Below, piece after piece: positions 2,725 to 37,248 of a stretch of 37,248 nt of DNA. Position 1 is the first letter of the stretch; every line of letters begins with the position of its first letter. Under the pieces are notes generated by a model. That model searched no databases, was not told the DNA's origin, and saw only the letters and a program-made list of their open reading frames with translations. Location: assembly GCF_014137945.1 (NCBI RefSeq), contig NZ_JACGWX010000011.1:1-37248 (forward strand), read 5' to 3'. The translations under genes and the position numbers were made by a program. The DNA comes from Microcella alkalica. Lineage in GTDB: Bacteria; Actinomycetota; Actinomycetes; Actinomycetales; Microbacteriaceae.

Positions 2725-3873
2725 GTGGCCACGACGCTCGTTCACGGCTGCGACCTCCTCGACGCGAGCGGCCGGCGAGCCGGCTGGGTGCTCCTCGACG
2801 GTCCGGCGATCGCCGCGACCGGCATCGAGGGGCGGGATGCCCTGCCTGCCGCCGCGACGGTGATCGCGCTCCCCGGCGGCACCCTGACCCCCGGGTTCAT
2901 CGACCTGCACGGGCACGGGGGCGCCGGCGCCGGCTTCGATGAGGGAGCGCAGGGCATCGCCTCGGCGCTCGCGGTGCATCGCCGGCACGGGACGACGCGC
3001 TCGGTCATCTCGCTCGTCGCGAACCCGATCGAGTCGCTCGTCGGGAGCCTTCGCCTCATCGCCCGCCTCGCGGCCACCGACCCGACGATCGTCGGCGCGC
3101 ACCTCGAGGGCCCGTTCCTCGCTCCTGCGCGACGGGGAGCGCACGCCGCGGAGCACCTGCTCGCCCCCGAGGAGGACGTTGTCGAGATCCTCCTCTCGGC
3201 CGCCGCCGGAGCTCTCGTCCAGGCGACGATCGCGCCCGAGCTGCCAGGGGCGATGGAGGCGATCCGCCGCCTCTCCGGTGCCGGCGTCGTCGTCGGAGTG
3301 GGTCACACCGAGGCGGACGAGACCACGGCGCGCGCGGCGTTCGACGCCGGAGCGCGACTGCTGACGCACGCGTTCAACGCGATGCCGGGCATCCATCACC
3401 GCGCCCCCGGCCCCGTCGCCGCCGCCATCGACGACGACCGCGTGGTGCTCGAGCTCGTGCTCGACGGCGTGCACGTGCACCCCTCGGTCGCCCGCATCGC
3501 CTTCCGCTCGGCGCCCGGGCGCATCGCGCTCGTGACCGACGCGATGGCGGCGGCGGGGAGCGCCGACGGCTTCTACCGGCTCGGCAGCCTCAACGTGACC
3601 GTGCAGGGCGGCATCGCGCTGCTCAACGGCACGTCGACGATCGCCGGGTCGACCCTGACTCAGGATGTCGCGCTGCGCACGGCGATCTCGGCCGGCATCG
3701 GCGAGGTCGCGGCGGTCGAGGCCCTGACGACGACGCCCGCGCGAGTGCTCGGCCGTCAGCGCGAGTGGGGGATGCTCGCCGCGGGCTTCGCGGCCGACCT
3801 CGTGGCGCTCGACGCCGACCTCCGAGTCGAGCGGGTGTGGGCCGCGGGCGAGCCCGTGCCGCTCGACGCCTGA
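2725..3873 (+). CDS. nagA: N-acetylglucosamine-6-phosphate deacetylase
   Basis: NagA removes the acetyl group from N-acetylglucosamine 6-phosphate, giving glucosamine 6-phosphate for cell-wall synthesis or glycolysis. The product is 382 residues, the usual size. The GTG start at 2725 has GAGGAGG (2713-2719) ahead of it. The amidohydrolase motifs appear in order: GFIDLHGHGG, AHLEGPFLAP (metal-binding Glu), VGHTEAD, THAFNAM, DGVHVH and LVTDAM with the catalytic Asp, ending in the family's AGFAADLVALD. It follows purU closely. No nagB or amino-sugar transporter is in the window. A strong hairpin follows the stop and separates it from the convergent protease gene. Confidence 0.95.
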   Translation: MATTLVHGCDLLDASGRRAGWVLLDGPAIAATGIEGRDALPAAATVIALPGGTLTPGFIDLHGHGGAGAGFDEGAQGIASALAVHRRHGTTRSVISLVANPIESLVGSLRLIARLAATDPTIVGAHLEGPFLAPARRGAHAAEHLLAPEEDVVEILLSAAAGALVQATIAPELPGAMEAIRRLSGAGVVVGVGHTEADETTARAAFDAGARLLTHAFNAMPGIHHRAPGPVAAAIDDDRVVLELVLDGVHVHPSVARIAFRSAPGRIALVTDAMAAAGSADGFYRLGSLNVTVQGGIALLNGTSTIAGSTLTQDVALRTAISAGIGEVAAVEALTTTPARVLGRQREWGMLAAGFAADLVALDADLRVERVWAAGEPVPLDA

Positions 3874-3975: not shown

Positions 3976-6900
3976 CTAGAGCTTCGTCTTGCCCTTCGGC
4001 TGCACGGTCACGGGCGCACTCTCGGCGCTCGCGGTCTCACCGTCGGCGTTCGTCGCTGTGACGACGACCGTCAGCTCCGAGCCGACCCACGACTGCTTGA
4101 GTCGCAGACTCTCCGACGCGGCCTTCCTGATGGGCTCGCCGTCGAGGAACCACTGGTAACTGAGCTCGACGCCCTCCTGGTTCCACGTCCCTGCAGTCGC
4201 CGTGACCGTCGAGTTCGCCGTCGAGGCGCCCTCGATGACCGGAGCCTGGACCGCCTCGAGCGGCGCCGCTCCCGACTCGACCGTGACGACCGTCCTCGCT
4301 CCCGTGTCGCCGTAGCTCACGAGGCCGATGTAGGTCGACTCGGCCTCGAGGCCGCTCCACGACGCTGTGTACGTCGACTCCACCCCCTGCTGGCCGGCGA
4401 TGACGGCCGGGTCGAGCGCGAGCTCGGCGCCCCCGTCGACAGCCGAGGTGATCGTGAGATCCCAGCTGACCGTGCCGGGCGCCGAGTAGACGTCCGCGAG
4501 CACGAGGTACTGACCGGCCTCGGGGTTCGGCAGGTCGACGCGCTCGTCCGCCGCGCCCGTCGCCGAGAACCACAGCGCGATTGGCTGACCGGCATCGTCG
4601 AGCAGGTACACGTAGAGGTCGAGGTCGGCCGTGTCGTCGAGGGAGTCGAGGTCGAAGCGCGCGAGCGCCGTTACCGCGGGCACCTCGACGAGGTACTCGA
4701 CAGCGTCGCCGGTCACGCCCGAGCCGGAGTTCGCCGACCCGGGGTCGTTCGGATCGGCGAGGAGCTGGCCGCGCGAGAGGCCCGTCGTGCTGAGCGCGAT
4801 GTCGCCCGTGCCGCCCGGCGTGACGCTCACGTCGACCGACCCGGCGATTCCCTCGCCGGCGACCTCGGCAGCGGCGATGATCGTGACCGGCTTGGCCGCG
4901 AGCGGCGACCGCACCGTGGTCTCACCCGAGGTCCAGGTCAGCGACCCGGAGGAGTAGGCGTCGAGAGGAGCCGTCGTGCGCGTGAAGGTGACAGTGAAGG
5001 TCGCCGACTCTCCTACCGCCGCGAAGCTCAGCGTCGAGGGCTCCACCGAGACGTCCATGCCCGCCATGCCCTGCACCGAGGCGGTGAAGGTGCCGGCCTG
5101 CGTGGCCGTCACCGTGCGGGTGACGGTCTCCGGCGCGGTCATCTCGCCGACGGCGATGGACGCGAGGTTGAGGTCGCTCGGGTCGATCGGGTCGACGGTG
5201 TCGCCGAGCTCGAAGCCGACGCCCTCGATGTAGCTGTACCAGTCGGCGAGACCGTTCAGGTAGAGCAGACCCGGCTCGAAGAACCGCGTTGGGTCGGCGT
5301 GTCCCGCGCCCTGCGTGAAGGGATCGGTGAGCGCGGAGCCGTCGACCTTCTTGGTGTCGTAGGCGGTCGTCATGATCGCCGACTTCACCTCGGCGGGCGT
5401 CGCGTTCGGACGCTCTCCCAGGTACAGCAGCGCGAGGCCGGCGATGTGCGGAGCCGACATCGAGGTGCCGCTGAGGAAGTTGAACGTCGGCGTCTCGCCA
5501 GCGCGATTCGACGTCGCGGCGAGAATGCCGACGCCGGGCGCCGAGATGTCGGGCTTGATGATGTCGCTGCCGTCGGCCATGACCGGTCCGCGCGACGAGA
5601 AGCCGGCGACCTGCGGAACGGCCGTCACGACGTCGGTCGAGTTGCCGAACGCCATGCTGACGGTCGCTGCCTCGGTCGCGGCGTACGCGCGAACTGCGTC
5701 GCGGTACTGACTGTTGAGGTGGATGGTCGGCACCGAGTGCGCATCCGCGTCGACCGAGCCGGGCGTGGCGTTGACGAGAATCATGCCGATGCCGCCCACG
5801 CGGGCCACCTCAGCGGACTTGGCGACGCGGTCGTAGACGCCGCGATCGCAGACTATGACCGTCCCTGCGGCGACCTTGCTCGCGTCGAGCGAGTTCGGCG
5901 CGCACAGCCTCACATCGGCTGCCGTGGCGCTCGCGGAGCCGAGCACGTCCGAGAGAACGAGCGCTCCCGTCGTCGGCTCCGCCCCCGCGGCCATGTCGAC
6001 GGTGATCGACGCGCCGGCGAAGGCCTTCCCGTCACCGAGCGTCGCCGTCGCCTCGAACGAGGGGATGGTGCTCGCGGCAACCGTGGTGATCCAGGGGCTC
6101 GCGTTGTCGAGCGTCGAGGCGCCGGGGCCGGAATTGCCTGCCGAGGCCGAGACGAAGACGCCCGCGGCGGCCGCCCCGAGGAAGGCCTGGTCGATGATCG
6201 ACACCGTCGAGTCGGCGCCGCCGCCGCCGATCGAGTAGTTGATCACGTCGACGCCGTCAGCGGTCGCCGCGTCGATGCCGGCGAGCAGGTCGCTCGTCGC
6301 GCATCCGTCGTCGGCCGATGTGGTCGGGTCCTTGCCGTTCCAGCAGACCTTGTACGACGCGATCTTGGCGCCGGGAGCGACGCCCGAGATGGTGCCGAAG
6401 TCGATGCCCTTGACGCTCGCGTCGACGAGGTGGTTGCCCGCCGCGGTCCCCGCGGTGTGCGAGCCGTGGCCGTCGCCGTCGCGCGGCGAGAGGAACTCGC
6501 CCGGCCCGGTCGAGGCGTCGCCGATGTTCTCGGCTCCGAAGCCGTCGACGAAGTAGCGCGCTCCGATGAGCTTCGTCGAGCAGTCGCCGGCCGTGAACTG
6601 GGCGCCCGTCTCGCAGATGCCGGTGAAGGTCTGGCCGTCGGCCTTGGCGAACACGATCGAGTCGCCGTCGCGGTAGGGCGCGTCGCCCGCCGTCGTGCCG
6701 AGCGGCTCGCCTGCGAAGGACGGGTTCTCGGGCGCGATACCGGTGTCGAGCACGCCGATGACGATGCCCGCGCCCGCGCTCTCGGCGCCGCCGACCTGCT
6801 CCCACACGCCGCCAGGACTCTCGAGACCGAGGAACTCGGTGCCGGGGACGGAGGTGATCTTGAGGAGCTCGTCGGGCGCCATCGCCACGACATCGCGCTG

Positions 6901-15263: not shown

Positions 15264-17072
15264 TCAGACGAGCGACTCGCGCCAGGCGGCGTGCAGCTGC
15301 GCGAACTTGCCCGAGCCCGCGATGAGCTCGGCCGGCGTGCCGTCCTCGATGACCTCGCCGTGCTCCATGACGAGCACGCGGTCGGCGATCGCGACGGTCG
15401 AGAGCCGGTGGGCGATGATGACCGCGGTCCGGTCGGCGAGCAGCGTCTGCAGACCGAGCTGCACGAGTCGCTCGCTCGGGATGTCGAGCGACGCCGTCGC
15501 CTCGTCGAGGATCAGCACGACCGGGTCGGCGAGGAACGCGCGCGCGAACGAGATCAGCTGCCGCTGCCCCGCCGAGACACGACCGCCGCGCTTGTTCACG
15601 TCGGTGTCGTACCCATCGGGCAGCGACTCGATGAACTCGTGCGCTCCGACCGCGCGCGCTGCCGCGACGATCTCGTCGCGCGTCGCCTCCGGTTTGCCGA
15701 GCGCGATGTTGTCGGCCACGGTGCCCGAGAACAGGTAGGCCTCCTGCGTGACCATGACGATCGCGCGGCGGAGGTCCTTGGGGTGGAGCTTCCGCAGGTC
15801 GACGCCGTCGAGCGTCACCGACCCCTCCGTGGGGTCGTAGAAGCGCGCGATGAGCTTCGCGAGCGTCGACTTGCCCGCGCCGGTCGTGCCGACGAGCGCG
15901 ATCGTCTGCCCCGCCGGGATGGTGAGCTCGAGCCGCGGAATCACGACCGAGTCGTCGTTGTACGAGAAGCGCACCTGGTCGAAGCGCACGGCTCCGCGCG
16001 CCTTCCACAGGTCGATCGGCGTCGTCGGGTCGGCGACCGAAGGGGCCTCCTCGAGCACGCCCGAGATCTTCTCGAGCGCGGCCGCGGCCGACTGGTACGA
16101 GTTGTAGAACATCGCCATCTCCTCCGCCGGGTCGAAGAACCGGCGCGTGTAGAGCAGGATCGCGATGAGCGCCCCGATCTCCAGGTCGCCCTGGAGGATG
16201 CGGAACGCGGCGACGAGCAGCACCGCGGCTACCGTGATGTTGCCGATGAGGACGAGCCCCGGGTCGTAGATGCCGAACACCTGGATGACGCGCGCGTTCG
16301 CGTGCCGGTAGTCCTCGACGAGCTCGCCGAAGTGCTCCTCGTTGCGCTTCTCCTTGCGGAACGCCTTGACCGCGCGGATGCCCGTCATCGTCTCGACGAA
16401 CTGCACGATGAGGCGCGCGGAGGCCACGCGCGTCTGCCGGAAGAGCTTCTGCGATCGCACCTGGAACCACCGCGTGAGCACGAGCAGCGGGATGAGCGCG
16501 ACCGCGAGCACGAGCCCGGAGGTCGGGTCGAGCAGCACGAGAGCCGCCGCCGTGAACCCCATGTAGAGCGCGCCGGAGACGAGCTGGGTGAGCCCCGAGT
16601 CCAGCAGCTCGCGGATCGAGTCGAGGTCGCTCGTCTGGCGCGCGATGATGCGGCCCGACGTGTACGACTCGTGGAACTCCAGCGACAGCCGCTGCGTGTG
16701 GAGGAACACGCGCTTGCGCAGATCCAGGAGGATCGCCTGGCTCAAGCGCGCCGACATCACCTGGAACAGGGCGATGAAGCTCGCGCCGGCCACGCCGGTC
16801 AGCAGGTACGCGCCCACATACAGCCACACGGGCATCCAGTCGCCCTGATCGCGCAGCGCCGGGAGGCCGCGGTCGATGCCGAAGGCGATGAGCGCCGGCC
16901 CGGCGACCTGCAGCGCCGTCGACAGCACGATCACGGCCATGGTCGCGACGACCCGACCGCGGACCGGCCGCACGAGCGACCCGAGGAGGCGCAGCGAGCG
17001 CGCGCGCATCTGCCGCGACTCGGCCTTCGAGAAGTCGTCGCGCTCCTCGCCCTCGACACCGGTGACGCTCAT
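15264..17072 (-). CDS. ABC exporter half-transporter, subunit with canonical Walker B
   Basis: The 602-residue subunit has six membrane helices (about residues 35-330) fused to an ATPase domain (about 365-600), the type-IV exporter layout. Walker A is GTTGAGKST, the Q-loop region VTQEAYLF, and Walker [12 protein letters not shown] with the catalytic Glu. The signature is VSAGQ instead of LSGGQ. Its start overlaps the stop of the other half-transporter by four bases. In heterodimeric exporters one subunit gives a full catalytic site and the other a degenerate one; here this subunit supplies the intact Walker A/B and the partner supplies LSGGQ. The substrate is unknown; relatives export drugs, lipids or peptides. 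The charged N-terminal tail ([11 protein letters not shown]) is cytoplasmic. Confidence 0.93.
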
Positions 17073-18988
17073 CGCTTGACCTCCCCGTCGCGCTCGATGA
17101 CGCGCGACTCGCGGTCGACGGCCTCGCGGCGCCGACCCTCCTCCTCGGCGAGCTTGAGCTCGCGGTCCTCGCGCTCGATCTGGGCGAGCTCCTCGTCCTC
17201 GAGCGACGAGATGACGTAGCGGTAGTGCTCGTTGCGCTTGAGCAGCTCCGAGTGCGTGCCGACGTCGGTGATGCGCCCCTCCTGCAGCAGCGCGACGCGG
17301 TCGGCCATCTGCACGGTCGAGGGACGGTGCGCGACGATGAGGCCGGTCGTCGTCGCGAGGACGCGCCGCAGCGCCGCCTCGACGAGCGCCTCGGTGTCGA
17401 CGTCGAGCGCCGAGAGCGGGTCGTCGAGCACGAGCACCGCCGGGCGCGCGGCCACGGCGCGAGCGAGCGCGAGGCGCTGCCGCTGGCCGCCGGAGAGGCT
17501 GAGCCCCTCCTCGCCGACCATCGTGTCGACGCCGTCGGGCAGGCGGTGCACGAAGTCGGCCTGAGCGATCTCGAGCGCCTCGGTGAGAACCCGGCCCGCT
17601 TCGGCCCGCGTCGTCGGGTCGTCGCCGGCGAGCTCGGGCCGACCGAGCAGCACGTTGTCGCGCACGCTCGCCGAGAACAGCGTCGCGTCCTCGAACGCCA
17701 TCGCGATGTGCCGACGCAGCTCTTCGCGCGTGAGCTGGCGGATGTCGACGCCGTCGAGCAGCACTCGCCCGCTCGTGACGTCGTACAGGCGCGTCGCGAG
17801 CGCCGTGAGCGTCGTCTTGCCGCTGCCGGTGATGCCGACGAGCGCCATGGTCTCGCCGGGCTCGAGGGTGAGGTCGATGCCGTCGAGGGTTCCGGGCTGG
17901 TCGATGGGGGCATCCTGGTATCGGAATACGACGTTCTCGAAGGTGAGCCGCCCCTCGGGCGAGGCGATCGTGACCGGATGCGCGGGGTCGGTGATCGCGT
18001 TCACCTCGTCCATGACCTCGAAGAACCGGTCAGCCGCCGAGCGCGTGTCGAACGTCATGGCGAGCAGGAACCCGATCGACTCCACTGGGAACCGCAGGAC
18101 CGTGGCCGCCGCGAAGAAGGCAAGCAGCTCGCCGACCGTGATCTCGCCCGCCGCCGCGAGCCCGACGCCGCCGAGCAGGCTGAGCGCGAAGGCGACGTCG
18201 GGAACGAGGATGAGCCAGAACCAGATGCCGGCGATCGCGCGAGCCTTCTCGATCTCGGTCGAGCGCAGCAGCTCGGCCTGATCGGCGAACTTCAGCAGCG
18301 AGTGCTTGCCGCGGCCGAACGCCTTGAGCACCCGGATGCCGTGCACGCTCTCCTCGACGGCGGTCGCGAGGTCGCCCTGCTGATCCTGCGCGCGGCGCGC
18401 GACGACCGAGTACTTCTTCTCGAACAGGTAGCCGTAGACCCACAGCGGCGCCGAGCAGGCGAGGAAGAGCAGGCCGAGCCAGATGTTGAAGTACACGAGC
18501 AGGCCGAAGCCGATGACGATCGTCACGATGTTGACGACGAGCAGCACGAGGCCGAACGAGATCCACCGGCGGATGAGGTTGAGGTCGCTCACGGCGCGCG
18601 AGAGCAGCTGGCCCGACTGCCAGCGGTCGTGGAAGGCGACGGGGAGGTCCTGCAGCTTCGCGTAGAGGCCGTTGCGCATGCGCGCCTCGATGTGGGTGCC
18701 CGGCGTGAGCACGAACCAGCGGCGCAGTGCGATCATGACGGCCTCGAGCACGCCGAGCGCGAGCACGATGATGACGGCGGGCACGATCGCGTCGCCGACG
18801 CCGGAGGAGAGCGGCCCGTCGACGAGGTGCTGCAGCACGAGCGGGATCGCGAGCGCGACGACGCCGGCGAGCAGGGCCGCGACCATGCCGAGGTAGATGC
18901 GCGGCATCGCCGGCTTCGCGTACGGGTACAGCCGGGCGATGGCCCTGGCCGTGCTCAAGCGGGATCGGTCGTGCTGCGTCGTCGACAT
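17069..18988 (-). CDS. ABC exporter half-transporter, subunit with degenerate Walker B
   Basis: The 639-residue subunit has six membrane helices (about 30-320) and an ATPase domain (about 350-590). Walker A is GITGSGKTT, the signature is canonical LSGGQ, but Walker B reads [11 protein letters not shown], with Asp in place of the catalytic Glu. That substitution is the mark of the non-catalytic site in heterodimeric exporters such as TM287/288. The C-terminal tail after residue 600 is strongly charged ([24 protein letters not shown]) and may form a coiled coil. It is the first gene of a two-gene operon, with RBS AGAGGA before ATG 18988 and a candidate promoter at 19125-19154. Pairing with the downstream 602-residue subunit is nearly certain; the substrate is not known. 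Confidence 0.93.
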
Positions 18989-19124
18989 GGTGGTCCTCTG
19001 GCGGCGCGCTCCGGTCGTGTCGGGGCGCGCATCGAAGCGGGGGATGCCGCAGTCAGGTGGCGGATGCTGGTGGCGGGTGGTGCGGTGCCTGGCCGCGATC
19101 GGGCGCGTCGCAGCAGAGCCTTTC

Positions 19125-32315: not shown

Positions 32316-34709
32316 TCAGATCTTCTCGATCGGGGCGATCTTGATCAGGAGCCTCTTGCGGCCGGCCGACTCGAACTGCACCTCGGCGATGCTCTTCGGC
32401 CCGGTGCCCGTGACCGTCGTCACGCGCCCCTCGCCGAAGTCGACGTGACGGATGCGGTCGCCGGCCGCGAGGGTCAGGTCGCCGTTGTCGCGCACGGTCG
32501 CGGTGACGCGGTTCGCCCACTCGGTCTTGGGCTTCCCGAGCGGGAGGGAGGTGCCGTAGCTGAACTGCTCGCGGCCGCTGCGGGTCGTGCCGAGCGATCG
32601 TTGGCTCGACGTCGAGCGCATTCCCATGCCCGGGGCGTCGCGCCAGTCGATGAGCTCGGTGGGGATCTCCTGGAGGTACCGGCTGGGCGCGGCGACCTGC
32701 GTGTCGCCGAAGGTCGAGCGCGTCATCGCGAGAGAGAGGTGCAGCTTCTTGCGGGCGCGGGTGATGCCGACGTAGAACAGGCGCCGCTCCTCCGCGGGGC
32801 CGCCCGGCTCGCTCGCGCTCATCTGGTGCGGCAGGAGGTTCTCCTCGACCCCGGTGATGAACACGGCGTCGTACTCGAGCCCCTTCGCTGTGTGGAGCGT
32901 CATGAGCGACACGGTGCCGCTGGAGTCGTCGAGGTCGTCGGCCGCGGCGACGAGCGCGACCTCGGTGAGGAAGTCGACAAGTCGACCTTCCGGATTGTTG
33001 CGCTGGAACTCGCGCGTCACCGCCACGAGCTCCTCGACGTTCTCGGCGCGCGCCTCGTCCTGCGGGTCGCGGCTCGCGCGCAGGAGCTCGACGTACTTCG
33101 TGCGCTCGAGGATGGCGGTGAGGACGTCCGGGACGAGCGCAGTGTCGATCGTCGCGGTCGCATCGTCGAGGATCCCGGAGAGGTCGAGGATGGCCGCCGT
33201 TACCTTCGGTCCGAGACCGAGAGCCGCGGCATCCCCCAGCGCATCGCGCATCGTCCCGCCCAGCTGATCGGCGTGGAGGGCGAGGGCGGTCTCGGTCGCC
33301 GGCCCGATGCCGCGCTTGGGGGTGTTCAGGATGCGCCGCAGCGCGAGCGCGTCTGCAGGGTTGGCGACGGCGATGAGGTACGCCATGGCGTCCTTGATCT
33401 CGGCGCGCTCGTAGAACTTCGTGCCGCCGAGCACCCGGTACGGCAGGGCCGAACGGATGAAGATCTCCTCCAGCGCGCGGGTCTGGGCGTTGGTGCGGTA
33501 GAACACGGCGATCTGGTTGTACGGCACGCCCTGCTCATGGATCTTCTGGATCTCGTCGGCGACGAACTGCGCCTCGTCATGCTGGCTGTAGCCGGTGAAG
33601 CCGACGATCCGGTCGCCCGCCCCGACCTCGGTGAAGAGGTTCTTGGCGATGCGGTCGAAGTTGTTGCCGATGACGGCGTTCGCAGCGTCGAGGATCGTCT
33701 GCGTCGAGCGGTAGTTCTGCTCGAGCAGGATCACCTCGGCGCCGGGGAAATCGCGCTCGAACTCGACGATGTTGCGGATGTCGGCGCCGCGGAACGCGTA
33801 GATCGACTGGTCGGAGTCGCCGACGACCGTGAGGGCCGCGGCGGGGATGCCCCCGGTCGCGTCGGTCTCGATGCGGGTGTCGGCGGGCACGTGCTGCGGC
33901 TCGACCGCCCGCGTCAGCTCGCGGATGAGCGCGTACTGGGCGTGGTTCGTGTCCTGGTACTCGTCGACGAGGATGTGGCGGAACCGCCGCTGGTAGAGCG
34001 CCGCGACCTGCGGGAAGGCGCGGAACAGGTACACCGTCTGGGCGATGAGGTCGTCGAAGTCGAACGCGTTCGCGCGCGCGAGCTCGGCCGAGTAGCGGCG
34101 AAACACCTCGAGGAACATGACCTCGGTCGGGTCGTTCGGGTTCAGCTGCCTGCTGTAGCCCTCCGCGTCGATGAGCTCGTTCTTCAGGCGCGAGATCTTG
34201 CCGGCGGCCGCGCTCACGGTGAGGCCGAGGGTGTCGGCCTGGAGGTCCTTCACGATGCGCTTGATGAGCGCGCGCGAGTCGGCCGAGTCGTAGATCGTGA
34301 ACGCCTGCGTGAACCCGAACTGCTGCGCCTCGCGACGGAGGATCCGCACGCAGGCCGAGTGGAACGTCGAGATCCACATGCCGTTCGCGGCCTCGTGGCC
34401 GATGAGCTGCCCGACCCGCTCGCGCATCTCGCCCGCGGCCTTGTTCGTGAACGTGATGGCGAGGATCTGGCTCGGCCAGAGCTCGCGATCGCGCAGCAGC
34501 CGTGCGATGCGGCGCGTCAGCACGCTCGTCTTGCCGGAGCCCGCGCCCGCGACGATGAGCAGCGCGTCGGCGCGCGACAGCACGGCGGCGCGCTGCTGCG
34601 GGTTGAGCCCGGCGAGCAGCGGATCGTCGGTCGCGGCGGGCGCGGGCTGCGACCGCGGCGGGGGCGCGAGGCCGGGGATGTCGAGTGACTCGTCGGGCAG
34701 GAAGGACAT
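32316..34709 (-). CDS. pcrA: ATP-dependent DNA helicase PcrA/UvrD
   Basis: This superfamily-1A 3'-5' helicase of repair and replication restart has 797 residues. The motifs appear in order: LNPQQRAAV (Q motif), VAGAGSGKT (Walker A), ITFTNKAAGEM (Ia), ILVDEYQDTN (II), VVGDSDQSIYAFRGA (III), LLEQNYRST (IV), VSLMTLHTAKGLEYDAVFI (V) and YVGITRARKKLHLSLA (VI). The C-terminal region ends in a Tudor-like RNA polymerase-interaction fold (AAGDRIRHVDFGEGRVTTVTG). The N-terminal 30 residues are Pro/Ala-rich and poorly conserved. TAGACT lies nine bases before ATG 34709 on the reverse strand, a possible promoter for a nearly leaderless mRNA. It is divergent from the DUF559 gene, with repeat element A between. 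Confidence 0.97.
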   Translation of the reverse strand: MSFLPDESLDIPGLAPPPRSQPAPAATDDPLLAGLNPQQRAAVLSRADALLIVAGAGSGKTSVLTRRIARLLRDRELWPSQILAITFTNKAAGEMRERVGQLIGHEAANGMWISTFHSACVRILRREAQQFGFTQAFTIYDSADSRALIKRIVKDLQADTLGLTVSAAAGKISRLKNELIDAEGYSRQLNPNDPTEVMFLEVFRRYSAELARANAFDFDDLIAQTVYLFRAFPQVAALYQRRFRHILVDEYQDTNHAQYALIRELTRAVEPQHVPADTRIETDATGGIPAAALTVVGDSDQSIYAFRGADIRNIVEFERDFPGAEVILLEQNYRSTQTILDAANAVIGNNFDRIAKNLFTEVGAGDRIVGFTGYSQHDEAQFVADEIQKIHEQGVPYNQIAVFYRTNAQTRALEEIFIRSALPYRVLGGTKFYERAEIKDAMAYLIAVANPADALALRRILNTPKRGIGPATETALALHADQLGGTMRDALGDAAALGLGPKVTAAILDLSGILDDATATIDTALVPDVLTAILERTKYVELLRASRDPQDEARAENVEELVAVTREFQRNNPEGRLVDFLTEVALVAAADDLDDSSGTVSLMTLHTAKGLEYDAVFITGVEENLLPHQMSASEPGGPAEERRLFYVGITRARKKLHLSLAMTRSTFGDTQVAAPSRYLQEIPTELIDWRDAPGMGMRSTSSQRSLGTTRSGREQFSYGTSLPLGKPKTEWANRVTATVRDNGDLTLAAGDRIRHVDFGEGRVTTVTGTGPKSIAEVQFESAGRKRLLIKIAPIEKI

Positions 34710-34780
34710 GACCGCCCAAGTCTAGGTCGCACCCCCGACGCACACCGCCCGGCCCGAGCGCAGCATCCGCCCGCGTTGCT

Positions 34781-34865
34781 GACCAAATGAAGGGACGGGA
34801 AGGTCGCTTGAGGGCGCGTCTTACCGACACGCCGCCTTCACGCCGGGAGCTCCCTTCATTCGGTC
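34781..34865. repeat. Palindromic element, copy A (85 bp)
   Basis: GACCAAATGAAGGGA (34781-34795) is inverted at 34851-34865 (TCCCTTCATTCGGTC, one mismatch). Inside, GGCGCGTC (34813-34820) and GACACGCC (34826-34833) form an inner hairpin. Copy B at 35836-35931 shares both arms, the inner hairpin and the same 37-base spacing of the right half. On the reverse strand both mismatches of copy A become G-U pairs. The rest of the pcrA / DUF559 spacer (34710-34957) shows no gene. Confidence 0.85.
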
Positions 34866-34957
34866 GGCCACTCCTCCCCATTCGGCGTCGACGAGAAGGA
34901 TCACCTGCGGGCGGCTCGCGCGCTTCACGTGCGCCTCGCCTCACCGATCATCGAAAC

Positions 34958-35806
34958 GTGGTGATCGAGGAACTGATCCGACGAGCAGGCGGTTCGGTCT
35001 CGACCGCTGAGTTGCACGGAGCCGGAATCGGAAAGGCAGAGCTCGCGCGGCTGCTGCGGGAAGGTCGCCTCTGGCGAGCGCGCGAAGGCTGGTACGTGGC
35101 ACGAGGTACCGCACCTGCCGTCGTGCAGGCCGTGCGGGTCGGCGGCGTGCTGACCTGCGCGCGAGCGCTAGAGGCGCACTCCCTCTGGAGCGCCCGGCAG
35201 GCTGGCGTGCACGTTCGCGTCCATCACTCCGCCTGCAGGCTGCGCGCGCCGCGCGACTCCCGACGCCGACTGGCAACCCAATCCGACCACTCCGCGGTCG
35301 TCCACTGGTCGCCGGGCTCGATCGATTCCACTCGCCTGCTCGCCGGACCGCTCGACGCACTCGACGACTACTTCGCGTGCACCGACAGGGACCATGCGCT
35401 CGGTGCGCTCGACTCGCTCATCCGCCTCAACCGTGGAAGGGCATCCGCGCTCTGCGATCGATTCGGCGTGCGCGAGTGGGAGGGCGTCGACGGCGGTTGC
35501 GAGTCCGGCATCGAGACGATCTTCTTTGTCCGGATGCTCCGCCTCGGGGTCTTCCCACACCGCCAGGTCCCTCTCCCCGAAGTGGGACGAGTGGACTTCC
35601 TCCTCGGGCGATCCCTCGTCGTCGAGGTCGACGGACGCAGCTTTCACGACCTGGAGGCATCGTTCGAGTCCGACCGCTCGCGCGATGCGGCGATCAGCGA
35701 CGGGGGCCGCCGGCCGCTCAGGTTCAGTCACGATCAAGTCCTGAAGCGCTGGGTCGAGGTGGAGCGCGCCGTGCTCGGTGCGCTGGCGCGGGGGGATCAC
35801 CTCTAG
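34958..35806 (+). CDS. DUF559 (Vsr/PD-(D/E)XK-like) endonuclease-domain protein with AbiEi-like N-terminal winged helix
   Basis: The 282-residue protein starts at GTG 34958 (or GTG 34961); neither has a Shine-Dalgarno site. Residues about 1-60 look like the AbiEi antitoxin winged helix (GGSVSTAELHGAGIGKAELARLL; EGWYVARG). The C-terminal 100 residues match the DUF559/very-short-patch-repair nuclease fold: Glu186 in SGIET, Asp213 in GRVDFLLG, Glu223 and Asp225 in VVEVDGRSFH, and His230. These are the expected metal-site positions, so the enzyme may be active. No toxin or methylase gene is beside it. It is bracketed by the two copies of the palindromic element, between pcrA and glpQ, which suggests an inserted unit. 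The biological role is unknown. Confidence 0.82.
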   Translation: MVIEELIRRAGGSVSTAELHGAGIGKAELARLLREGRLWRAREGWYVARGTAPAVVQAVRVGGVLTCARALEAHSLWSARQAGVHVRVHHSACRLRAPRDSRRRLATQSDHSAVVHWSPGSIDSTRLLAGPLDALDDYFACTDRDHALGALDSLIRLNRGRASALCDRFGVREWEGVDGGCESGIETIFFVRMLRLGVFPHRQVPLPEVGRVDFLLGRSLVVEVDGRSFHDLEASFESDRSRDAAISDGGRRPLRFSHDQVLKRWVEVERAVLGALARGDHL

Positions 35807-35835
35807 TGCGAAGCGCCGCTGCCGCTCCGACGTCG

Positions 35836-35931
35836 CGCTCGACGAAATGAAGGGAGACACTCCATCGTCGACGGCGTGTCAGAGCCGACACGCCGCCTCT
35901 GCACTGCCCGCTCCCTTCATTTCGTCGAGCG
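35836..35931. repeat. Palindromic element, copy B (96 bp), near-perfect
   Basis: A 21-base arm, CGCTCGACGAAATGAAGGG followed by AG (35836-35856), is inverted without mismatch at 35911-35931. Inside, CGGCGTGTC (35872-35880) and GACACGCCG (35887-35895) form a perfect 9-bp hairpin with a six-base loop. It resembles copy A in arms, inner hairpin and spacing. It lies 30 bases after the DUF559 gene stop and 30 bases before the convergent glycerophosphodiesterase stop, so it could also act as a terminator for both. Confidence 0.9.
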
Positions 35932-35960: not shown

Positions 35961-36971
35961 TCAGTCGGCGGCGAGCGTCGCCCGCGCCTCAAGCGCCAGA
36001 TCCGGGTGGTCGGCGAACACGCCGTCGAGGCCCGCGCCCATGAGCGTGCGGAACCACGTCATCCAGTCGCCGTGCGCCGAACCGCCGGAGCCGATGCGCA
36101 GCGGGCCGGGCAGGAAGCGGTTCTCGGGCCGGAGCGTCCACGAGAAGACGGAGAGCCCCTCCGCGTGTGCGCGGTCGACGAGGTCGCTCACGACAACCGG
36201 TCCGCCCCGCGAGGCGGGAGCTGCGACGAGCGCGGTGGGGACGCTGATGCCGTCGACCTCGCGCGCGAGCCGCGCGAGCCCCGCGCTCGTGAGGTGCCCC
36301 GAGTACGAGAGCGCCGCCGCTCCGAACTGCGCGACGAGGTCGGCGGGCGACCCCTTCCTCTCGAGCAAGAACACGTACCGCGCCTCGACCCCGCGCTCGC
36401 GCAGCAGACCGAGCACCGACTGCTCGAACGACTCCACGACGAGGGGGGCGGCCGGCCTCCAGGCTGCGACCTCGGCGGCGAACATCTCGTCGAGCGGAAG
36501 GCCCAGCGCGGCGAAGTGCGTCGCGTGCTTGATCTCGGCGACCATGCCCACGGGCCGGGGCGCCGCATCCAGGATCGCCATGAGGTCGCGCAGGCGCAGG
36601 ATCGGATACCGCCCGTCGAACCGGGATGACGCCTGGCGCACCGCCGGCAGCCGCTCGCGGGCGCGCAGCGTCGCGAGCTCGCCCCACGTGAAGTCCTCCG
36701 TGAACCAGCCGGTGAGTCGCTCGCCGTCGATGACCCGAGTGGTGCGCCGGTGGGCGAACTCGGGGCGGTCGGCCACGTCGGTCGTCCCGCTGATCTCGTT
36801 CTCGTGCCGCAGCACGAGCACACCGTCGCGCGTCGCGACGATGTCGGGCTCGATGGCGTCGGCGCCGAGGGCGATCGCAAGCTCGTACGCGGCTCGGGTG
36901 TGCTCGGGCCGGTAGCCGCTGGCTCCGCGGTGGGCGACGACGAGCGGCTGCGCGCGCGTGGGCTCGATCAC
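35961..36971 (-). CDS. Glycerophosphodiester phosphodiesterase
   Basis: The 336-residue GDPD-family enzyme (GlpQ/UgpQ type) hydrolyses glycerophosphodiesters from lipid turnover to glycerol 3-phosphate and an alcohol. The catalytic and metal residues are in VVAHRGASGYRPEHT (His and Arg-Gly), GADAIEPDIVATRDGVLVLRHE (Glu-x-Asp and the second His) and AEIKHATHF (Glu/Lys). Further along are VVESFEQSVL, FSWTLRPEN and GLDGVFADHPDLA. No signal peptide is visible, so it is likely cytoplasmic. The frame opens at ATG 37004, but GTG 36971 sits seven bases after a TAGGGT box on the reverse strand and directly precedes the domain, so I chose it. Confidence 0.9.
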   Translation of the reverse strand: MIEPTRAQPLVVAHRGASGYRPEHTRAAYELAIALGADAIEPDIVATRDGVLVLRHENEISGTTDVADRPEFAHRRTTRVIDGERLTGWFTEDFTWGELATLRARERLPAVRQASSRFDGRYPILRLRDLMAILDAAPRPVGMVAEIKHATHFAALGLPLDEMFAAEVAAWRPAAPLVVESFEQSVLGLLRERGVEARYVFLLERKGSPADLVAQFGAAALSYSGHLTSAGLARLAREVDGISVPTALVAAPASRGGPVVVSDLVDRAHAEGLSVFSWTLRPENRFLPGPLRIGSGGSAHGDWMTWFRTLMGAGLDGVFADHPDLALEARATLAAD

Positions 36972-36978
36972 GGCGACC

Positions 36979-36995
36979 ACCCTACGGGGTAGCCT
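36979..36995. promoter_or_regulatory. Divergent leaderless promoters
   Basis: The reverse strand has TAGGGT (36984-36979), seven bases before GTG 36971 of the phosphodiesterase. The forward strand has TAGCCT (36990-36995), seven bases before ATG 37003 of the DUF4190 gene. The two -10 boxes are only five bases apart, so the promoters should compete. Confidence 0.5.
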
Positions 36996-37002
36996 GCCGA
37001 GC

Positions 37003-37248
37003 ATGATCGACGGGATGCCCGCCCTGCGCCCCGGCCCGACCGACGCCGCACCGCCCGCGCCGCCCGCGCGAGCCGCGCGCCTGAACCCGCTCGCCGTGCT
37101 CGCCCTGCTCCTGGGAATCCTGCTCAGCCCCCTCGCCGCCCTCTTCGGTCACCTCGCCGCCGGCCAGATCACCCGGTCCCACGGCGCCGAGCGTGGGGCC
37201 GTCCTGGCGTGGGTCGCGATCGGGCTGGGGTGGCTGTGGCTCCTTCTG
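37003..37248 (+). CDS. DUF4190-type small membrane protein (partial)
   Basis: The first 82 residues are present; the gene runs off the right edge. A Pro/Ala-rich cytoplasmic start (RPGPTDAAPPAPPARAARL) leads into a hydrophobic segment LAVLALLLGILLSPLAALF, the loop GHLAAGQITRSHGAERG and a second hydrophobic segment. That pattern, with AAGQI between two helices, matches DUF4190 membrane proteins common in actinobacteria. The function is unknown. TAGCCT seven bases before the ATG suggests a leaderless mRNA. Confidence 0.75.
   Translation, partial: MIDGMPALRPGPTDAAPPAPPARAARLNPLAVLALLLGILLSPLAALFGHLAAGQITRSHGAERGAVLAWVAIGLGWLWLLL

Follow-up and report, generated by a model that had tools for sequence, protein, structure and literature searches.

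AbiEi/DUF559 nuclease genes between cognate palindromes in Microcella alkalica and its relatives: candidate REPtron-like units built on an unrelated enzyme

RAYT genes were recognised because each lay between two inverted REP sequences, which were also dispersed and co-diverged with the gene, as set out in four reports (PMC2817692, PMC3686654, PMC8266576, PMC3733652). AbiEi proteins are described as controlling their own expression through inverted repeats to which they bind; the two 23-bp repeats bound by AbiEi are spaced by 3 bp, and in each pair of Rv2827c repeats the spacing is 13 bp (PMC7319586). The locus of Microcella alkalica considered here is, on balance, probably one member of a large family in which an AbiEi/DUF559 gene lies between two palindromes with lineage-specific arms, accompanied by solo copies with the same arms, and which spreads through cutting by the nuclease and copying by repair. 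The protein family is found in 208 of 299 Microbacteriaceae genomes at E <= 1e-20, and in 129 of 296 genomes of a class-wide sample that includes Microbacteriaceae at E <= 1e-15. In the open-access literature, no described role for this protein family was found, nor any description of DUF559 genes with cognate palindromes.

The window, that is, the whole stretch of DNA that was analysed, comprises 37,248 bases and is contig 11 of a 2.74-Mb genome. Within it, an AbiEi_4 + DUF559 gene for a protein of 282 amino acids (34958..35806, plus strand) combines an N-terminal AbiEi-like winged-helix half with a C-terminal PD-(D/E)XK nuclease resembling Vsr and I-Bth0305I. The two palindromes of the original prediction are present where it had placed them, with the extent of copy A widened from 34781-34865 to 34777-34869. 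As it had also stated, copy A is intergenic between divergent genes, namely the enclosed gene and the pcrA helicase gene on the minus strand (32316..34709). Copy B (35836..35931) is intergenic between the enclosed gene and a convergent gene for a GDPD-family phosphodiesterase (35961..37004, minus strand), and both of these host neighbours are outside the unit. The outer arms of copy A, each a half-site, span 34779..34797 (plus strand, with a degenerate inner end) and 34849..34867 (minus strand), and enclose inner stems at 34812..34821 and 34825..34834 (both plus strand). In copy B, the outer arms span 35839..35857 (plus strand) and 35910..35928 (minus strand), and the inner stems 35872..35881 and 35886..35895 (both plus strand). 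The common arms and inner GGCGyGTC/GACACGCC stems predicted for the two copies were recovered, as was the 21-bp perfect outer stem of copy B over 35836-35931. Compared with dinucleotide shuffles, the folding of copy A has z values of -3.5 (plus strand) and -6.1 (minus strand) and that of copy B -7.3 and -6.9, with none of 200 shuffles equalling either copy. An ATG at 34787, inside the outer arm of copy A, is in frame with the DUF559 gene and would extend it to an open frame of 339 amino acids; alignment favours the GTG at 34958 as the start.

Copies A and B are not products of chance, because the genome contains 13 clear copies of the element, these two among them. The element is about 93 bp long and consists of two inverted half-sites, each made up of TCGACSRAATGAAGGGAGC, some 14-15 free bases and CGGCGTGTCG. 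Among the 26 half-elements of the 13 copies, the outer half-site has the consensus TCGAC[C/G][A/G]AATGAAGGGAGC and the inner one CGGCGTGTCG. The distance from the GGGAG end to the inner stem is 15 bases in 25 of the 26 halves and 14 in the other, the spacer sequence itself being free, and the facing halves of an element are separated by 3-4 bases. A covariance model built from the 13 copies, to which copies A and B score 67.3 and 88.1 bits, finds 17 places in this genome at E < 1e-6, and a later search with it added C6:28079 (E 7.6e-4) for a total of 18; a further place at E 0.10 is excluded from these counts. Fourteen places have the arm type of the window (the 13 clear copies and C10:38997), and four have a second type near CCAAATGCAGG (C3:150275, C3:135036, C4:155863 and C6:28079). 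All 13 clear copies are intergenic, with seven between convergent, four between co-directional and two between divergent genes, as judged by a simple, unpublished gene caller of our own that called the DUF559 gene at A and B in part. In the 155 kb around these copies, CGGCGTGTCG occurs 21 times on both strands, compared with no occurrence of one scrambled word. The same inner word recurs in palindromes with very different outer arms, including one at a locus outside Microbacteriaceae (L296), and may be read by something common to several arm types.

In the original prediction, G-U pairs in copy A were taken as a sign that an RNA fold was being kept. G-U pairing on the minus strand of copy A is indeed observed, but this applies to copy A alone, and the 13 copies do not bear out a maintained fold. 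Their left spacers do not complement the right ones (a sum of 65, compared with a shuffled mean of 72.5), and their arms show no excess of pairing (92.8%, compared with 92.4% when the right arms are redealt, 117 of 500 shuffles being as high). The RNA-structure reading of the element was dropped on these grounds, and the suggested guide-like role is not supported. Since the spacers are free and pairing is not in excess, the constraint within this one genome lies on half-site sequence and spacing rather than on pairing, a pattern that would fit a DNA site read by a symmetric pair of proteins. These data also bear on the explanation that the palindromes are ordinary bidirectional terminators or RNA structures with an accessory gene nearby by chance. 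The stems are strong and seven of the 13 copies lie between convergent genes, as terminators might; however, two copies lie between divergent genes, the arms are specific to gene lineages, the dispersed families are sequence-specific, the own-genome family has no pairing excess, and Rfam gives no match at gathering score across the window. This explanation is thus largely contradicted already, and we consider it very improbable.

Among the 299 Microbacteriaceae genomes, the covariance model has matches in 15, several with the same inner stem and other outer arms; matches in G260, G110, G113 and at G137:670158 resemble other palindromes and were left out of the element family. An AbiEi_4 + DUF559 gene lies between two copies in three of these genomes (G039, G199 and G244) and beside one copy in another (G085). 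As these first genes were met through the element, which is a biased start, loci were gathered anew by protein sequence alone, yielding 82 of which 80 were kept, with two of them (L094 and L128) repeating the loci of G074 and G039. Palindromes were then sought without any motif, counting every perfect inverted repeat whose arms were 12 bp or longer and separated by 25-85 bases. Their density is 1.306 per kb within 500 bp of the protein match (102 in 78,096 bp), compared with 0.041 per kb farther away (21 in 517,735 bp), and 59 of the 80 loci have one nearby. With arms of at least 14 bp, 65 are near and four farther away, the near ones belonging to 43 of the 80 loci.

A set of 78 genes was assembled from the window gene, the four loci found through the element and 73 of the 80 protein-derived loci, after excluding five without a clean frame and two duplicates. 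By a loose criterion, 70 of the 78 lie no more than 600 bp from a palindrome, 53 of them with one on either side, and the other eight have none; this criterion is unspecific, with 65 of 136 control genes from the loci also having such a palindrome by chance. Strong palindromes are found at 61 of the 78 genes compared with 15 of the 136 controls. Furthermore, an equal arm on both sides is seen in 40 of the 53 genes with palindromes on each side, compared with 7.4% of 2,756 cross-locus pairs, and none of 2,000 shuffles reaches the observed mean. Counted over whole sets, this corresponds to 40 of 78 genes and one of 136 controls, although the loci are not all independent, because many of the Microbacterium loci occupy one chromosomal place. 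In 29 genes, the equal arms belong to strong palindromes on both sides. The window gene itself is counted among those without equal arms (score 6), because a chance 111-bp repeat upstream was taken instead of copy A. Palindromes are located 3' of the gene in 62 of the 78 cases and 5' in 61, and as individual palindromes are symmetric, the orientation of a flanking pair is undefined. Outside Microbacteriaceae, three of 18 DUF559 loci (L278, L289 and L296) lie between same-arm palindromes; of the rest, the majority have a single palindrome nearby and some have none.

The 80-locus density and the comparison of 78 genes with 136 controls both tie the palindromes to DUF559 genes. The REP/RAYT-like layout with a PD-(D/E)XK partner, as first proposed for this locus, is thereby strongly supported, with cognate palindromes of lineage-specific arms at DUF559 genes of many genera. 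The layout also recalls REPtrons, as described in two reports (PMC2817692, PMC3733652), such that the palindromes could instead be a known REP/RAYT or IS-derived repeat whose tyrosine transposase is encoded elsewhere, the DUF559 link being coincidental. This is scarcely credible given that link in both the 78-gene and control tests, the own elements of about 93 bp with no GTAG tag, and the absence of a Y1 transposase domain from the enclosed gene and the 78 proteins, in which only the DUF559, MTES_1575 and AbiEi families match at E <= 0.001. Membership of the enclosed gene and the 78 proteins among RAYTs was likewise rejected for want of a Y1 HUH domain.

Within single genomes, the arms differ between paralogues. 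The M. alkalica genome has seven matches to the protein alignment, two of which are pieces of one broken gene, leaving six places. The gene at C1:539356 has the CAATTCAGGAC arm on both sides, that at C4:229444 has ACTCCGGAGA on one side, and a frame-broken nuclease paralogue (C1:173800-174551) has GCCAGATGCAGGC on one side. The four dispersed copies of the second type in this genome resemble the arm of the broken paralogue. Across the genus, 25 of 30 gene loci were scanned for palindromes, and at least six of the 25 have no convincing one (C2:339021 and C1:437884, a partial match, in M. alkalica; G137:2171778; C1:127709 and C1:1564300 in G074; and C24 in G275, which is incomplete). In G137, dispersed GTGCACAAATGCAGGA copies match the arms on both sides of the gene at 882991, and the dispersed GTTCGCTCATTCGGGCGC copy in G235 corresponds to the gene at 1610605. 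Where palindromes were found, paralogues of one genome bear different arms, and in the cases checked, dispersed copies match a resident paralogue.

Dispersal was also followed with strict patterns. The pattern AACTCAGG-N45..75-CCTGAGTT has 2-25 copies, flanking ones included, in 13 of 16 genomes, 12 of which were picked because their gene flanks bear a related arm, and its reversed control has none in all 16. CAAYTCAGGA-N48..78-TCCTGARTTG has 6, 16, 6, 20, 12 and 18 copies in six congeners, again with flanking ones included, and none in four genomes (three of them small) without a protein match at 1e-20; the control is absent from all 10. Copies of this second pattern lie mainly near their cognate gene: in G235, 12 of the 18 non-flanking copies are no more than 100 kb away, as are all five in G137, which none of 20,000 random placements equalled in closeness; as one gene lineage inherited in one genus, these are not independent cases. 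In M. alkalica, all five non-flanking copies listed are within about 55 kb of the gene. The clusters occupy C1:1045715-1202098 in G235, C1:1224548-1269656 in G137 and C1:484852-560145 in M. alkalica. Other families are genome-wide, as with CAACTCAGGAA in G074 and the AACTCAGG pattern in G305 and G303. Near-identical palindromes 137-205 bases apart were observed at C2:34244, 34382 and 34519 in G039 (L074), C1:717202 and 717407 in G305, and C32:87102 and 87271 in G303, and may be likened to small BIME-type arrays.

The Pfam matches of the window protein are weak, with DUF559 above the cut-off and AbiEi_4 below it. Its AlphaFold2 model (pLDDT 93, pTM 0.88) has as its best Foldseek match the AbiEi antitoxin 6y8q (E 5.8e-5), the sole match with E < 0.001. 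The closest solved nuclease fold is the catalytic domain of I-Bth0305I (3r3p; E 3.3e-3, TM by target 0.81), and Vsr (1cw0) matches with E 0.088. Vsr-like homing endonucleases such as I-Bth0305I go by the name EDxHD. Across the 78 proteins, Pfam matches comprise REase_MTES_1575 (PF18741) in 62, DUF559 (PF04480) in 60 and AbiEi_4 in 25, and the active-site residues are nearly invariant (E186, D213 and D225 each in 77, D239 in 76, E223 in 75 and H230 in 70). The PADLOC matches, to AbiEi, homing endonucleases and others, are weak.

The more alike two of these proteins are, the more alike are their arms (Spearman 0.313 over 61 genes, with none of 1,000 permutations as high and species phylogeny uncorrected). 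For the N-terminal half (residues 1-120), the partial correlation with the arm given the nuclease is 0.287, and none of 500 permutations is as high, phylogeny being again uncorrected. For the nuclease given the N-terminal half, it is 0.014 (170 of 500 permutations), and given only residues 1-50 it is 0.083 (10 of 500). By these sequence comparisons, the arm tracks the N-terminal AbiEi-like half and not the nuclease domain. Between arm types, changes in one arm are accompanied by changes in the other, with 92.9% of 1,499 cells paired compared with 74.1% when shuffled, in an alignment that was fitted to structure and hence leans towards pairing, and with 254 cells changed on both sides compared with 66. 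The 23-bp inverted repeats of AbiEi would be a close precedent for inverted half-sites of the length found in the element.

Comparison with the congener G074 separates what is held from what drifts. Five of its six copies are at places orthologous to copies in M. alkalica, which makes a large share of the dispersal ancient and vertically inherited; for the sixth (L084), no counterpart was found among the M. alkalica stretches compared. The flanks of these five are mostly 87-92% identical, and within the copies, identity amounts to 97/100 in the inner stems, 162/190 in the arms and 57/139 in the spacers. With stems and arms conserved and spacers diverged at orthologous places, it is the half-sites that are maintained and the remaining sequence that drifts. 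The copies in M. alkalica are also not recent, since their spacers are free. When seven of these were sought in G074 stretches, C6:25597 was present, C1:113671, C6:68027 and C6:76516 had no copy at their counterparts, C6:136789 had left only a half-arm, and C6:57375 and C6:107751 had no orthologous junction that could be found. One of the absences ends at CTAG repeats, which deletion explains equally well.

The fixed half-sites and diverging spacers suit an explanation in which nothing moves, the flanking palindromes being operators and the dispersed ones genomic sites in a chromosomal binding network of a resident, DNA-binding AbiEi/DUF559 regulator or nucleoid-type protein. Such a network could serve autoregulation as in AbiE systems or the tethering of a defence nuclease. 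The AbiEi autoregulation through inverted repeats described in the cited report (PMC7319586) and the clustering of one family near its gene favour it as well. However, only two of the 13 copies lie between divergent genes and seven lie between convergent ones, where operators would be poorly placed, palindromes are equally common 3' and 5' of the gene, presence varies among congeners, one unit has been swapped, and other families are genome-wide. We therefore treat a static network as a serious but rather unlikely explanation.

The pcrA-glpQ junction, at which the window unit resides, differs among the congeners. In G074, the DUF559 gene lacks its N-terminus, a lone half-arm being followed by sequence from about residue 40, and copy B is present. 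Both half-arm scars of G074 break just inside GGG or GGGAG (L082, about 16810-16900, which is the pcrA-glpQ case, and L195, about 18984-19030), and from these two cases only, the position of the break possibly hints at that of cutting. In three of five congeners (G235, G189 and G275), the junction has neither the DUF559 gene nor either palindrome; relatives that lacked the gene and kept both copies, or copies with no link to DUF559 genes, would, in the terms of the original prediction, have made the unit a coincidence, and both checks turned out in its favour. In G137, the gene at the junction is diverged, and its palindrome is degenerate and differs in arm type. The empty sites are heavily diverged, with no evident common target sequence discernible, and no insertion bearing a target-site duplication was recognised. 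In addition, none of the 23 indels listed in a search for solo elements in similar flanks near the 80 loci has inverted arms longer than 10 bp.

Two Plantibacter records, L098 and L104, have flanks that are 96.2% and 97.7% identical, and the block between them is alignable only in 275 bases of the gene (76% identical), with arms that differ (CGGTTCACAACTCAGGAG and CCTTTCTCAGGA). In L098, flank identity stops at 3779 and the first palindrome begins at 3781, while the last palindrome stops at 5083 and identity resumes at 5090; the margins in L104 are about 20 bases. As these margins are so narrow, the swapped block is the palindrome-gene-palindrome unit and hardly more. This swap, together with presence and absence among congeners, suggests but does not prove that the unit is mobile, as was first suspected. 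There is no sign of a vehicle, given that two of 72,556 plasmid records and one of 50,697 phage records have matches, all of them partial. The two plasmid records label these proteins antitoxins.

A homing-type selfish gene could account for several of these observations. Its nuclease would cut a target in strains that lack the unit, repair would install the block, and solo palindromes would be remnants that have lost the gene. The closest solved nuclease fold is indeed that of a homing endonuclease, blocks differ at one place between the Plantibacter records, pcrA-glpQ is empty in three of five congeners, and the G074 scars show decay by deletion. On the other hand, the M. alkalica genome has 14 places but one gene found with that arm, the copies are compact and symmetric with no trace of a gene, and the empty sites share no evident target, making homing of this type improbable.

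The best reading is a REPtron-like unit, in which a gene is accompanied by dispersed palindromes cognate to it and the enzyme is an unrelated one. The association of element and gene family, the matching arms, the dispersal, the constraint on half-sites and the tie of the arm to the N-terminal half are all observed in the data. We infer that the nuclease spreads the palindromes, with the AbiEi-like half binding, the Vsr-like half cutting and repair copying. The AbiEi-like domains of two (or four) protein molecules would contact the inverted half-sites, in the manner of AbiEi antitoxins on their 23-bp inverted repeats, and the Vsr/homing-endonuclease-like domain would nick or cut in or beside the element, perhaps when extruded as a cruciform. 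Through repair of the break, a further intergenic site would then acquire a copy of the palindrome or of the entire unit. Selection, or recognition itself, would maintain resident copies, as their half-sites are constant and the remaining sequence drifts. For these palindromes, the system would then play the part supposedly taken by RAYT transposases for REPs, using a wholly different enzyme. More specifically, there is about an even chance that it represents an independently evolved actinobacterial counterpart of REP/RAYT, in which multi-paralogue AbiEi-wHTH/Vsr-like nucleases with private palindromic addresses bind, cut and copy their cognate dispersed palindromes, or copy the whole unit, within the chromosome, in some families mainly near the gene. 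For a common, little-studied nuclease family, cognate palindromes suggest what the substrate and the recognition domain probably are, together with a reaction that can be tested. They may also offer a second, non-homologous case of how extragenic palindromes arise and are kept, a question that REPs still pose. Should it be possible to read the arm code from the N-terminal half, these loci would furthermore provide a natural series of matched protein-site pairs.

Several known systems resemble this one in part. The N-terminal fold matches that of AbiEi 6y8q, a binder of inverted repeats beside its own gene in AbiE type IV toxin-antitoxin systems; unlike in AbiE, no AbiEii toxin gene adjoins the window gene, whose neighbours are pcrA and the GDPD gene, a nuclease domain is fused, and the palindromes are also dispersed. 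I-Bth0305I and Vsr share the catalytic fold (3r3p, with an E value of 3.3e-3 that is not < 0.001) and conserved acidic residues, whereas here the gene is free-standing between host genes, an AbiEi-like half is fused and palindromes flank it. The REase_MTES_1575 and DUF559 families take in most of the 78 proteins, yet their names and the literature found make no mention of palindromes. TIRtrons with their TIRYTs, as described (PMC3733652), likewise have a nuclease gene bounded by long inverted repeats, some copies of which are dispersed, but theirs is a tyrosine transposase and the ends are terminal inverted repeats rather than whole palindromes.

The closest likeness is to REPtrons, with which these loci share a gene between palindromes of the same class, dispersed extragenic copies, several classes per genome, co-divergence of enzyme and palindrome, and tandem neighbours. 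In contrast to the HUH tyrosine transposase of REPtrons, the enzyme here is an AbiEi-wHTH fused to a PD-(D/E)XK nuclease. The elements are about 65-105 bp long rather than 20-40 bp with GTAG or CGTC tags, which are absent from the consensus ends of the M. alkalica elements. The window family additionally has two nested stems and spacers of constant length, and copies number from a few to tens by the strict patterns, compared with hundreds for REPtrons. The layout is of a known sort, and the enzyme and the repeat are unrelated to those of REPtrons. As layout and dispersal agree while the type of enzyme and the type of repeat do not, these loci are an analogue of the REPtron rather than a member of that group.
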